From Cytophaga aurantiaca DSM 3654 (GTDB lineage: Bacteria > Bacteroidota > Bacteroidia > Cytophagales > Cytophagaceae), in contig NZ_KB903666.1 of the NCBI RefSeq assembly GCF_000379725.1, forward strand, positions 1 to 64,000: 64,000 bases of DNA, in the 5' to 3' direction. The stretch's first letter is position 1. The number at the start of each line of letters is the position of its first letter. Of this stretch, positions 5,870 to 9,550 are shown piece after piece. Position numbers and translations under genes: made by a program. The notes beneath the pieces were generated by a model. That model was not told the DNA's origin. It made no database searches and saw nothing but the letters and a program-made list of their open reading frames with translations.

Positions 5870-6214
5870 GTGGAAGAGAAAAAAGACAATGATAATGTTG
5901 AGATTTATTCTCAACGTATTAAGGCAGGGAAAAGGACATATTTTTTTGATGTGAAGTCAACCCGTTCAAATGATTACTATTTGACCATCACAGAAAGCAA
6001 GAAACGTTTTAAGGATGAGGGCTTTTATTACGAAAAGCATAAAATTTTTCTGTATAAAGAAGATTTTAATAAATTTTTAGAAGCATTAACTCAATCGGTT
6101 GATTACATAAAGACTGAATTGATGCCCGAAGTAGATTTTGATCAATTCGATAAAAATGAGGATGAGGATGGAGAAGCCTCAAACTCGTTGGATACAGATT
6201 TGAAATGGGATTGA
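5870..6214 (+). CDS. PUR-family nucleic-acid-binding protein (DUF3276)
   Basis: A 114-residue acidic-tailed protein. Its core (EIYSQRIKAGKRTYFFDVK, YYLTITESKKRF, KIFLYKEDFNKFLEAL) is that of the bacterial PUR-alpha-like family (DUF3276), which includes the Borrelia nucleic-acid binder BpuR and is nearly universal in Bacteroidota. The start is a GTG at 5870 (M-EEKKDNDN); there is no ATG in frame. The C-terminus is a run of D and E residues. It is a single gene, divergent from rlpA; its DNA or RNA targets cannot be read from the sequence. Confidence 0.85.
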   Translation: MEEKKDNDNVEIYSQRIKAGKRTYFFDVKSTRSNDYYLTITESKKRFKDEGFYYEKHKIFLYKEDFNKFLEALTQSVDYIKTELMPEVDFDQFDKNEDEDGEASNSLDTDLKWD

Positions 6215-6330: not shown

Positions 6331-7428
6331 ATGAGTTTACAATGTGGTATCGTTGGTCTTCCTAATGTTGGTAAATCAACTCTTTTCAATGCTCTTTCTA
6401 ATGCGAAAGCAGAAGCAGCAAACTATCCTTTCTGTACAATCGAGCCAAATGTTGGAGTAGTTACCGTTCCAGATCACCGTTTAGGGATTTTAGAGGCTAT
6501 TGTTAAGCCAGAAAAAGTACTTCCTGCAATTATTGAATTTGTTGACATCGCTGGTTTAGTAAAAGGAGCGAGTAAGGGTGAAGGCTTGGGAAACCAGTTC
6601 TTAGCTAACATTCGTGAAGTTGATGCCATTGTGCATGTTGTTCGTTGTTTTCAGGATGATAATATAATCCACGTAAATGGAAAAGTAGATCCTATTTCTG
6701 ATAAGGAAATTATTGAAACAGAATTACAGTTAAAGGATTTAGATTCAGTAGAGAAAAAGCTTTCTAAAGTTGAACGTGCTGCAAAAGCAGGGGATGCTAA
6801 AGCTAAAAAAGATGTAATTACACTAAGTCTGTATAGAGCGCATTTGCTGGAAGGTAAAAATGCCCGTTCTTTAGATTTGCCACAGGAAGATAAATTAGTT
6901 TTAGAAGATTTGCACTTATTGACAATAAAACCTGTTATATACGCAGCGAATGTTGATGAGAAATCTCTTCCGGACGGGAATGAGTATGTAGAACTTCTGA
7001 AAAAAGAAGCTATAAAGGAAGGTGCTCAGATCGTTATTGTATGTGCAGCTATTGAAGCGCAAATACAGGAGTTGACAGATCCAGAGGAGAAGGCAATGTT
7101 CTTGCAGGAATATGGTTTAACAGATTCAGGTTTGAATCGTTTGATCCGTGCTTCGTATGCATTGCTGGATTTGATAACCTATTTCACAGCGGGTGTAAAA
7201 GAAGTTAGAGCCTGGACAATTACAAAAGGTTGGAAAGCTCCAAAATCAGCAAGTGTAATCCACAATGACTTTGAAAAAGGATTCATTAAAGCTGAAGTAA
7301 TCAAATTAAAAGATTACGAAACATATAAATCAGAAGCAGGCTGTAAAGAAGCAGGCAAGATTGCTATAGAAGGAAAAGAATACGTTGTTCAAGATGGAGA
7401 TATTATGCATTTCCGCTTCAACGTTTAA
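6331..7428 (+). CDS. ychF: Ribosome-binding ATPase YchF
   Basis: A 365-residue P-loop protein of the Obg-related YchF/OLA1 family, which prefers ATP to GTP and binds ribosomes. The G1 motif GLPNVGKST is at residues 9-17 and the [20 protein letters not shown] switch segment follows. In place of the NKxD motif there is NVDE, the family hallmark explaining the ATP preference. A coiled-coil region spans about residues 130-165, and a C-terminal TGS domain (about 280-365) ends in the typical MHFRFNV. Full length and single-gene. Confidence 0.97.
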
Positions 7429-7486: not shown

Positions 7487-8287
7487 ATGAGAGTCCGTTT
7501 GATATTTGGTCTAGTGAATAAAGGCTCCTATGTGCCTTTTCATCACCAGTATTTAATTACAGAGTTTTTGACACCGTATGTCGAAAAATATTTGAAGTCT
7601 ATTAATGAACCTTCCAGAGTGTTCTATAACTTCTCTGCCCTTAAAGGACAGACTCGTGTAGGCAAAGAAGGACTCCATTTCTATTCGAGCAAGGTTACGT
7701 TGATCTTTTCTTCGAATGATCCGGGTTTGGTTGAATCATTGGTAAATCAATTATTTAATGAAACAGAAGTTCATCTTGGAAAATTGATCCTGAACCCGAT
7801 TAATGTAGATCAGGAGAAGTTAGCGGATTTTACAAACGAAATGAAATACATTTGTTTGTCTCCGTTAGCGATCATCACACCTCAGGATAATCCTGTGGAT
7901 GCGAAACGTTTCATCAATCCTTCGTTTGATGTATTCTCTGATGCTTTGTATGAAAATACATTGAATCGTATGGAGCGTGCAGGAGCGACACCTGATGAGA
8001 TTGCTCAGTACTTCCAGTTCCAATTGGTTCCGGATAAAGACTATCTAACGAAGATTAAAGGTGAAGAAAAGAAGTTCGCCCGTATTTTCCCTGTCTTTAT
8101 TGGTGATGAAAAACACGAAGTAAGAGGATATACATTCCCATTCACATTCTATGCGCACCCTAAAGTACAGGAGTTCGTGTTTACATGTGGCTTCGGTGTA
8201 TTCGGTGAAAAAGGATTTGGTATGTTAGATATTGCTAACACAGATCCTAACCTTAGAATTATTCCTTATCCGATTAAAAAAGATTAA
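7487..8287 (+). CDS. cas6: Cas6-like CRISPR endoribonuclease, stand-alone
   Basis: A 266-residue protein with the two-ferredoxin-fold layout of Cas6, the enzyme that cuts CRISPR precursor RNA in the repeat. The N-terminus MRVRLIFGL followed by VPFHHQYLITEFL fits the first RAMP strand and the helix that carries the Cas6 histidine. The C-terminal glycine-rich loop, FVFTCGFGVFGEKGFGMLD at residues 230-248, matches the family pattern GxGxxxxxGFG. No other cas gene and no repeat array is in the window; neighbours are housekeeping genes. It follows ychF by 58 nt on the same strand and its stop abuts that of the convergent T9SS plug gene. The family is well supported; the biological role is open. 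Confidence 0.85.
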   Translation: MRVRLIFGLVNKGSYVPFHHQYLITEFLTPYVEKYLKSINEPSRVFYNFSALKGQTRVGKEGLHFYSSKVTLIFSSNDPGLVESLVNQLFNETEVHLGKLILNPINVDQEKLADFTNEMKYICLSPLAIITPQDNPVDAKRFINPSFDVFSDALYENTLNRMERAGATPDEIAQYFQFQLVPDKDYLTKIKGEEKKFARIFPVFIGDEKHEVRGYTFPFTFYAHPKVQEFVFTCGFGVFGEKGFGMLDIANTDPNLRIIPYPIKKD

Positions 8288-9550
8288 TCAACGACCTCGG
8301 TATCGTTGACTGTAATAGCCTATGGCACGATCGTACATGTCTCCCTGTAAGCGGGCATATACGATGATGTCGTAGGCATTTTCAGTTAAAGAGGAGTTGC
8401 CTTCAAAATAAATATCATCCCTTACACCTGCAGCATCTACAACACTATAAGAATAGTTGTAATATCCCTGCTTCAACCAAAACGCACCACTATAATATTT
8501 TTCATCTGCATTATAGGTAAGCTTATATTCCGGCAATGTTTTCCAGTTGGTGAATCTACCGGTAATGTATACATCTCCCGGAGCGGGTGTCGTGCTTGTT
8601 AATTGAAAGTGCACCATCACATAATCCGGATCGGTTGTGGTGTTTAAATTCTCATAGAGCTGAGGGAAGAATGCTCCATTGATATCGTCATAAAATGCAT
8701 ACGCTAGTTTTTTTCGCGACATTTCAGGAAGAATCCATGCATCACATCGTTCATTTGTCCGCTCAACTCTTCCAATATAAATGCCATTAAAGAGTACGCT
8801 TCGCAAATCAAAATAGCGAAACTCATTTCCGCCGTTGAAGGTATTTTCACCATTATAAAACTGATAGTCTAAGGACTTTTCGTAATCCTTTATAAATACA
8901 GGACGCAGATTTGTAATGGCATTATAGTTCTTATAATTCTGTCTCAGTCGTACTTTAACATCGTTGTATGGATTTGTAATATCAAGATTTCCGTAATTGA
9001 TCTGAAAGTTAACCTGCTGTTTTGTAAAGGCATCTGCGGGGTTTATAGATCTCGTTACAAGAGCTGTTACCGGGGCTACATTTTCATAGATCACAAATTG
9101 TCTTGTTATGATAACATCATCTTCATCGTAGTTGCGGTAGATTTTTATTAAGAAGTTGCCGCTTACTTTTACTTTTGGAATAACGACAGTATAATGATTG
9201 TAAGCTATACGTGTTTTGAATGACATATCTGCTTCAGGCACTCTGAATTCATTGAAGTCATACAGATATTGAGATTGCGACAAATAGGACTGAGTCCAAT
9301 CTGCATTGTAATGATATATTTTGTAATAAAAATATTGCTGTTCCGCATTCAATTCATCAAACTCTAATATCAAGCGGGTATTTTGATTGAATGGAACAAT
9401 AGGTACACCTTTTGACCCATCCGGTTCTGCATAAAATAAGACAGATTTGATCTTGTCAGAAAATACATTGTCTTCAGGCTTTACATCTGCTGCAAATACT
9501 CGAAATGATGCAGCAAGTAATAAAAAGAATACGAAAAAAAGATTTCTCAT
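8288..9550 (-). CDS. Type IX secretion system plug protein (DUF5103)
   Basis: A 420-residue secreted protein with a signal peptide (residues 1-20, LLLAASFRVFA) followed by the DUF5103 region, including DWTQSYLSQSQYLYDFNEF, FLIKIYRNYDEDDVIITRQF and, near the end, DVYITGRFTNWK. In Flavobacterium johnsoniae a protein of this family plugs the SprA translocon pore of the type IX secretion system in its resting state. It lies 7 nt downstream of the ABC-F gene on the same strand, so the two are likely one operon. Other T9SS genes are not in the window. Confidence 0.85.
   Translation of the reverse strand: MRNLFFVFFLLLAASFRVFAADVKPEDNVFSDKIKSVLFYAEPDGSKGVPIVPFNQNTRLILEFDELNAEQQYFYYKIYHYNADWTQSYLSQSQYLYDFNEFRVPEADMSFKTRIAYNHYTVVIPKVKVSGNFLIKIYRNYDEDDVIITRQFVIYENVAPVTALVTRSINPADAFTKQQVNFQINYGNLDITNPYNDVKVRLRQNYKNYNAITNLRPVFIKDYEKSLDYQFYNGENTFNGGNEFRYFDLRSVLFNGIYIGRVERTNERCDAWILPEMSRKKLAYAFYDDINGAFFPQLYENLNTTTDPDYVMVHFQLTSTTPAPGDVYITGRFTNWKTLPEYKLTYNADEKYYSGAFWLKQGYYNYSYSVVDAAGVRDDIYFEGNSSLTENAYDIIVYARLQGDMYDRAIGYYSQRYRGR

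Follow-up and report, generated by a model that had tools for sequence, protein, structure and literature searches.

The cas6-like gene designated here cas6L occupies positions 7487–8287 on the forward strand of the window, i.e. the whole 64-kb stretch of Cytophaga DNA that was analyzed. It begins with an ATG codon and forms an intact open reading frame for a protein of 266 amino acids with two ferredoxin/RAMP domains. On the same strand, ychF (6331–7428) lies immediately upstream, with a DUF3276 gene (5870–6214, forward strand) further away, and downstream a convergent gene on the reverse strand (8288–9550) encodes the plug of the type IX secretion system (T9SS). The core-gene neighbors named in the original prediction are therefore both in place. 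Comparison of 81 loci, comprising the window and 80 fetched loci, shows how widely this order is kept: ychF precedes cas6L in the same orientation in 77 of them, the DUF3276 gene stands further up in 70 and the plug gene follows in 63. The gap between ychF and cas6L has a median of about 108 bp.

A self-targeting RNA structure upstream of cas6L was considered and rejected, as the spacer separating the gene from ychF gave no folding signal. The test set the spacers of 69 of the 77 loci with ychF each against 25 mononucleotide shuffles and revealed no conserved RNA structure (mean z 0.12, three loci below −2). Empty sites were sought at the ychF loci of 16 genomes devoid of cas6L (a 17th, G025, had no full-length ychF). 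The sole case occurs in G046, where ychF is followed by the plug gene at 55 bp. In G020 the plug gene lies ∼1.1 kb past ychF, and no plug gene was recognized within 1.5 kb downstream of ychF in the other 14 loci. Among these loci without cas6L, ychF of L157 was masked in the ORF filter by a longer ORF on the opposite strand.

By homology, cas6L is a genuine member of the Cas6 superfamily, as attested by profile matches, its two RAMP domains and its Gly-rich loop. The protein is matched by Pfam PF01881 (Cas_Cas6_C) with an E-value of 5.8e-18 and 66.4 bits (cut-off 23), by NCBIfam TIGR01877 with 61.4 bits (cut-off 58.65) and by PADLOC models named Cas6b with an E-value of 1.8e-26. PF21350 stays under its cut-off of 27 with 23 bits, PF15089 is also under its cut-off, and the Cas6b_N/Cas6b_C models (PF17955/PF17262) gave no match in the Pfam search. 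An AlphaFold2 model, computed from a 63-row alignment drawn from the 81 orthologues with near-copies left out, adopts the two-RAMP fold (pLDDT 91.5, pTM 0.90). Its five top PDB matches are all Cas6 structures, tied at Z 23.6–24.5, the next match standing at Z 14.2; VIA-align matches with Z under 14 were excluded from inference. Significant Cas6 profile matches in three collections and a predicted Cas6 fold thus bear out the claim of a stand-alone Cas6-like gene, along with the two features cited in its favor. The N-terminal RAMP strand is real, and the C-terminal Gly-rich loop (residues G235–G245, positions 8189–8221, forward strand) keeps the Cas6 signature, its pattern fitting 79/81 orthologues.

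In a group of soil and marine bacteria, cas6L has become a permanent and conserved part of the chromosome. Full-length orthologues are present in 42 of 59 relatives. Across the order Cytophagales, 168 of 392 genomes give a match, of which 165 are strong (E below 1e-60) after removal of three weak ones (G477, G659 and G685); the gene is missing from several families of this order. A sample of 392 genomes from the phylum contains nine strong matches (E below 1e-110), all inside the order; the 46 remaining matches are weak (E above 1e-22) and come from classes other than the window's own. A collection scan returned 393 relatives, and the best 80 of these 393 are nearly all titled Cytophagales or families and genera of that order, a few being titled merely Bacteroidetes or Bacteroidia and two MAGs labelled Chitinophagaceae apparently belonging to the window's own family. 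Viral copies of cas6L were also considered and rejected, since the viral contigs searched contained no relative of the gene.

Evolutionary distances between cas6L sequences track those of the neighboring genes, with a Mantel r of 0.79 for YchF (0/999 permutations as high, 75 loci) and an r of 0.87 for the plug (60 loci), these comparisons being limited to loci with full-length partners. In a mixed tree of Cas6 proteins, the cas6L orthologues form one clade with support of 100/99, apart from both other sampled Cas6 groups; this tree and its alignment include 22 of the 63 orthologues, and its deeper joins are unsafe owing to long branches.

Purifying selection on cas6L is clear. Within the genus, dN is 0.016–0.033 and dS is saturated (1.5–4.4), giving dN/dS ratios of about 0.01 that the saturation makes rough. 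In the same pairs, the dN of YchF is 0.035–0.052. Over the whole order, YchF is the better conserved of the two, with a median identity of 0.74 versus 0.61 for cas6L (60 loci) and a median identity to the window of 0.72 versus 0.49 (75 loci), so the slower change of cas6L within the genus is not general. These data bear on the idea that cas6L is the eroding vestige of a former CRISPR-Cas locus. The lack of any detected cas operon in the window's genome would fit such decay, but an intact ORF, a dN/dS of about 0.01 and order-wide orthologues in fixed synteny led to its rejection, and we give it a negligible probability.

The active site is where cas6L departs from the classical enzymes. The catalytic triad of PfuCas6 consists of Tyr31, His46 and Lys52, of which His46 is reported as essential (PMC3652601). 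In a profile alignment, T29 of cas6L stands at the place of Tyr31 and V45 at that of Lys52, the segment corresponding to His46 being missing, and direct alignment places Tyr or Lys at the triad positions in 0/22 aligned orthologues. The LHxxGY motif carrying the catalytic histidine is found in 0/81 orthologues, versus 24 of 28 comparison Cas6 proteins. The comparison set combines nine proteins from eight genomes of relatives in the order (a second copy in G056 was left out) with 19 weak phylum matches, taken as putative CRISPR Cas6 proteins from the 21 loci L130–L150 after leaving out L137 and L146. The four comparison proteins without the motif are that of G044, which lies in no visible CRISPR locus, and three short proteins encoded within 10 kb of cas1. 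Judged from these alignments, the classical Cas6 catalytic residues are lost in the cas6L family. SsoCas6, however, cleaves without a catalytic His (PMC3652601), so the absent triad is no proof that cas6L is inactive.

Variation at this site is also seen among other Cas6-like proteins of the order. In a second Cas6-like gene of G044 (L202, 7306–8343, reverse strand; 345 amino acids as called), the catalytic His is replaced by Arg (FLRQQGY); Cas1 has no match in this genome, and the 15 kb inspected there gave no array. The short CRISPR Cas6 proteins (∼220 amino acids) of G009, G057 and G047 (L206, L207 and L208) lack LHxxGY, form their own clade and share an H[RK]W motif near helix α1, which possibly marks a different active site.

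Loss of the classical residues is accompanied in the cas6L family by a conserved set of its own. Among 22 orthologues, 65 alignment columns are invariant; 18 of these, Gly-rich loop included, are common to at least 70% of the comparison Cas6 proteins, and 27 hold a residue found in at most 2/28 of them. The family-specific invariant residues include R4, K53, G54, Q55, R161, K195, K209 and E211. The KGQ triplet (residues 53–55, positions 7643–7651, forward strand) is present in 81/81 orthologues, each of its letters occurring in 1/28 comparison proteins. Just before helix α1, a PFHHQ motif (residues 17–21, positions 7535–7549, forward strand) is found in 80/81 orthologues, the remaining one having PFYHQ.

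It is around this second motif that a domesticated but still active endoribonuclease might be envisaged, using a displaced site, e.g. H19/H20 before α1 with K53 or other basic residues, to cut a specific cellular RNA. H20 and Q21 are invariant in 63/63 aligned sequences, F[HY]HQ recurs in 81/81, and H20 sits near where some Cas6 proteins hold their catalytic His, a point against a non-cleaving protein. According to PMC3652601 and PMC3727216, the catalytic residues differ from one active Cas6 subfamily to another, and a His in or before α1 can be among them. The same HQ, however, is found in PfuCas6 and M. mazei Cas6, and the essential His of PfuCas6 is nonetheless His46. We regard such an enzyme as unlikely, although it deserves to be kept in mind. 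The suggestion in the original prediction of a domesticated RNase acting on cellular hairpin RNAs is affected accordingly: domestication is well supported, the gene and its synteny being conserved in relatives with and without Cas1, and the RNase and hairpin parts are conjectural and in some measure weakened by the absence of the catalytic residues and by the reported binding of unstructured RNA by PfuCas6 and PhCas6nc (PMC3727216).

Comparison with known structures places cas6L equally close to catalytic and non-catalytic proteins. PfuCas6 (3I4H/3PKM) and M. mazei Cas6 (5YI6), both of which serve CRISPR, share with cas6L the two RAMP domains, the Gly-rich loop and HQ before α1, and superpose on its model with Z 23.6–24.4 over 218–224 aligned residues. 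PfuCas6 has the Tyr/His/Lys triad and M. mazei Cas6 the same letters in the alignment, whereas cas6L is devoid of both the triad and the His-bearing segment. Tied with these catalytic proteins are PhCas6nc (3QJJ, Z 24.4) and a Cas6-related protein of P. furiosus (3UFC, Z 24.5), the latter being also the best sequence-profile match to cas6L (3.3e-14). The archaea with these two proteins have CRISPR. Neither shows the His motif when aligned, in which they resemble cas6L, and their identity to cas6L is about 19%. PhCas6nc is described as inactive (PMC3727216) and the 3UFC protein as non-catalytic (PMC3652601). By its predicted Cas6 fold without a catalytic His, cas6L fits the PhCas6nc-like class in structure and sequence. 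Unlike its archaeal relatives, cas6L is fixed in a bacterial order and its host has no detected CRISPR-Cas locus. The Cas6b proteins of its bacterial relatives (PF17955/PF17262) also belong to the Cas6 class but lie inside CRISPR loci, and cas6L matches neither of these Pfam models.

The original prediction had noted a window free of CRISPR arrays and of other cas genes, and both statements are borne out, the second for the cas families searched over the whole genome. No array was found over the 64 kb (20-mers in at least three copies, 45–100 bases apart), and Rfam at gathering thresholds returned from the window just one tRNA and no CRISPR element. Whole-genome profile searches of the window's genome (G000) detected no Cas1, Cas2, Cas5 or type III RAMP, and no second PF01881 Cas6. 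The same four families are missing from all three Cytophaga genomes, each of which has one PF01881 protein and a Cas3 model below cut-off; the best cas3_core score in G000 is 48.4 bits, versus a cut-off of 102.45. The searches in the genus covered Cas1, Cas2, Cas5, type III RAMP, Cas3 and PF01881. Positive controls exceeded the cut-offs among 14 genomes for Cas1 (nine), Cas2 (seven), Cas5 (six), RAMPs (four) and Cas3 (six). Nine other genomes bearing cas6L without Cas1 likewise gave no RAMP or Cas5 match.

One member of the genus does carry an array. In G001, a metagenome-assembled genome (MAG), 32 matched repeats extend over L209 12262–14316 (G001:C166); the array is degenerate at both ends and stops less than 0.1 kb short of the contig end. 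In the preceding 12 kb no cas gene was recognized, and genome-wide none of the families looked for turned up; it is either an orphan array or one whose cas locus is missing from the MAG. When the G001-type repeat was scanned genome-wide, G000 gave eight scattered matches with two to three mismatches versus four in a control, and the third member, G002, gave seven versus three. The G000 stretches around two of the eight matches (the best included), 28 kb in all, contain no array; the genome-wide array scan of G000 covered this one repeat type.

These observations bear on the proposal, made in the original prediction, that cas6L processes a distant array in trans, i.e. that it is a resident Cas6 for type I or III systems that are gained and lost over time. 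Use of Cas6 in trans is apparently common to most type III systems (PMC12669027), and the G001 array of 32 repeats with no cas genes found would suit such a role. Relatives supply a further candidate in G053 (L212, 6267–9956), where cas1, a cas2-looking ORF and a 21-repeat array lie ∼9 kb from cas6L, with no effector recognized in the 20 kb around cas1 and the array. In G053, as in G040, G048 and G055, cas1 is present and the stand-alone cas6L is the sole PF01881 match (in G048 the contig ends at the locus). The association of cas6L with Cas1 is mildly positive across the order (odds ratio 2.1, p 0.0005, 392 genomes), although family structure confounds it: Cas1 is present in 152/392 genomes, 81 of them with cas6L and 71 without, compared with 84 that carry cas6L without Cas1 and 156 that have neither. 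Within the family coded f19, 37/37 Cas1-positive genomes carry cas6L, but so do others, as 56 of the 93 listed carriers are without Cas1; in f11 and f13, a strong cas6L orthologue is found in 0/66 Cas1-positive genomes. These family tallies use hand-copied codes and a partial list of the genomes without a match. Because of this pattern, the presence of cas6L is seen to follow lineage rather than CRISPR.

A further argument comes from 12 relatives that have their own Cas6 in a CRISPR locus. In eight of them (G007, G009, G033, G041, G042, G047, G056 and G057), a distinct PF01881 protein is encoded within 10 kb of cas1, and arrays are present in 7/7 inspected loci of this type (all but that of G056). 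In the other four (G021, G028, G032 and G046), the CRISPR locus contains a Cas6b-type gene (PF17955/PF17262; in G028 by PADLOC models alone). Nine of the 12 genomes also carry cas6L, the exceptions being G028, G046 and G047. A role for cas6L as trans Cas6 in G021, taken to be devoid of its own, was rejected, as the III-B locus of this genome carries a Cas6b gene. The type I-like CRISPR locus of G028 has, flanked by a cas3-looking ORF and the Cas6b gene, a further ORF (L220, 6121–6735) that presumably resembles a REP/Y1-type transposase.

Processing in trans is therefore called into question by these 12 genomes with a Cas6 of their own, by the 84/165 cas6L carriers without Cas1 and by the missing classical catalytic residues. 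It also fits poorly with G000 and G002, in which no Cas1, Cas2, Cas5, RAMP or G001-type array was found and yet dN/dS is about 0.01. Most cas6L carriers have no need of such processing, the G001 array being what keeps the idea alive; as a general account of the gene we hold it to be distinctly improbable.

Given that the fold is kept, that the catalytic residues are lost, that a family-specific set of residues is conserved and that inheritance is chromosomal, we favor, with some reserve, the view that cas6L is a captured Cas6 that has become an RNA-binding protein, inherited vertically and independent of CRISPR, probably with no cleavage of the canonical kind. The capture, presumably a single event, would have taken place in a common ancestor of a large part of the Cytophagales; the gene would then have settled permanently between ychF and the plug gene of the T9SS, been passed on vertically and been put to a cellular use independent of CRISPR. 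The fold suggests that RNA would be bound in the cleft between the two RAMP domains, as is reported for PfuCas6 and PhCas6nc. The protein may thus recognize a cellular RNA in a sequence-specific manner, as a binding protein or a chaperone, cleaving it little or not at all in the canonical Cas6 way. That one early capture gave rise to a housekeeping RNA factor with a particular conserved RNA of the cell as its target, and with a possible tie to translation by way of ychF, is a narrower proposal that we advance tentatively and with more doubt than conviction.

The proximity of ychF also raises the question of whether the RAMP fold could serve simply as a protein-binding scaffold, for instance ribosome- or YchF-linked, with no specific RNA target. 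Fixation beside ychF on the same strand and the many family-specific invariant residues are compatible with this role, but the neighborhood also holds unrelated core genes, so that the synteny with ychF may be just inherited order. Moreover, cas6L retains the Gly-rich loop, an element adjoining the active site in Cas6 proteins (PMC3727216). A pure scaffold is accordingly very improbable in our estimation.

The proposed conversion of cas6L into a cellular RNA-binding protein has partial counterparts in reported exaptations of CRISPR components, namely transposon-borne systems, CreTA RNAs and scaRNA, which are likewise put to non-defense use. In the passages of PMC8730458 and PMC12669027 consulted, such exaptation concerns mostly mobile elements and guide RNAs, and a lone Cas6 established as a core gene of the chromosome is not among the cases described there. 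The open-license PMC literature likewise gave no recognizable description of a solitary conserved Cas6 of Cytophagales. The cas6L family is apparently a new, non-CRISPR variant of a known protein family. If the proposed reading is true, it would be, as far as the literature was searched, the first instance in which a lone Cas protein has become, order-wide, a core and non-immune gene of the cell. A solitary Cas6 established in the chromosome throughout a bacterial order, with its classical active site removed and a within-genus dN/dS near 0.01, would cleanly exemplify the passage from an immune protein to a cellular RNA factor.

There is finally a practical consequence for genome annotation. 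TIGR01877 matches 63/63 scanned orthologues at an E-value of 1e-5 or better, the curated cut-off being known to be exceeded for the window protein. As this equivalog model names the window protein, a genome free of CRISPR may be annotated as having Cas6, and in Cytophagales, surveys that take a Cas6 gene as a sign of CRISPR could go astray.
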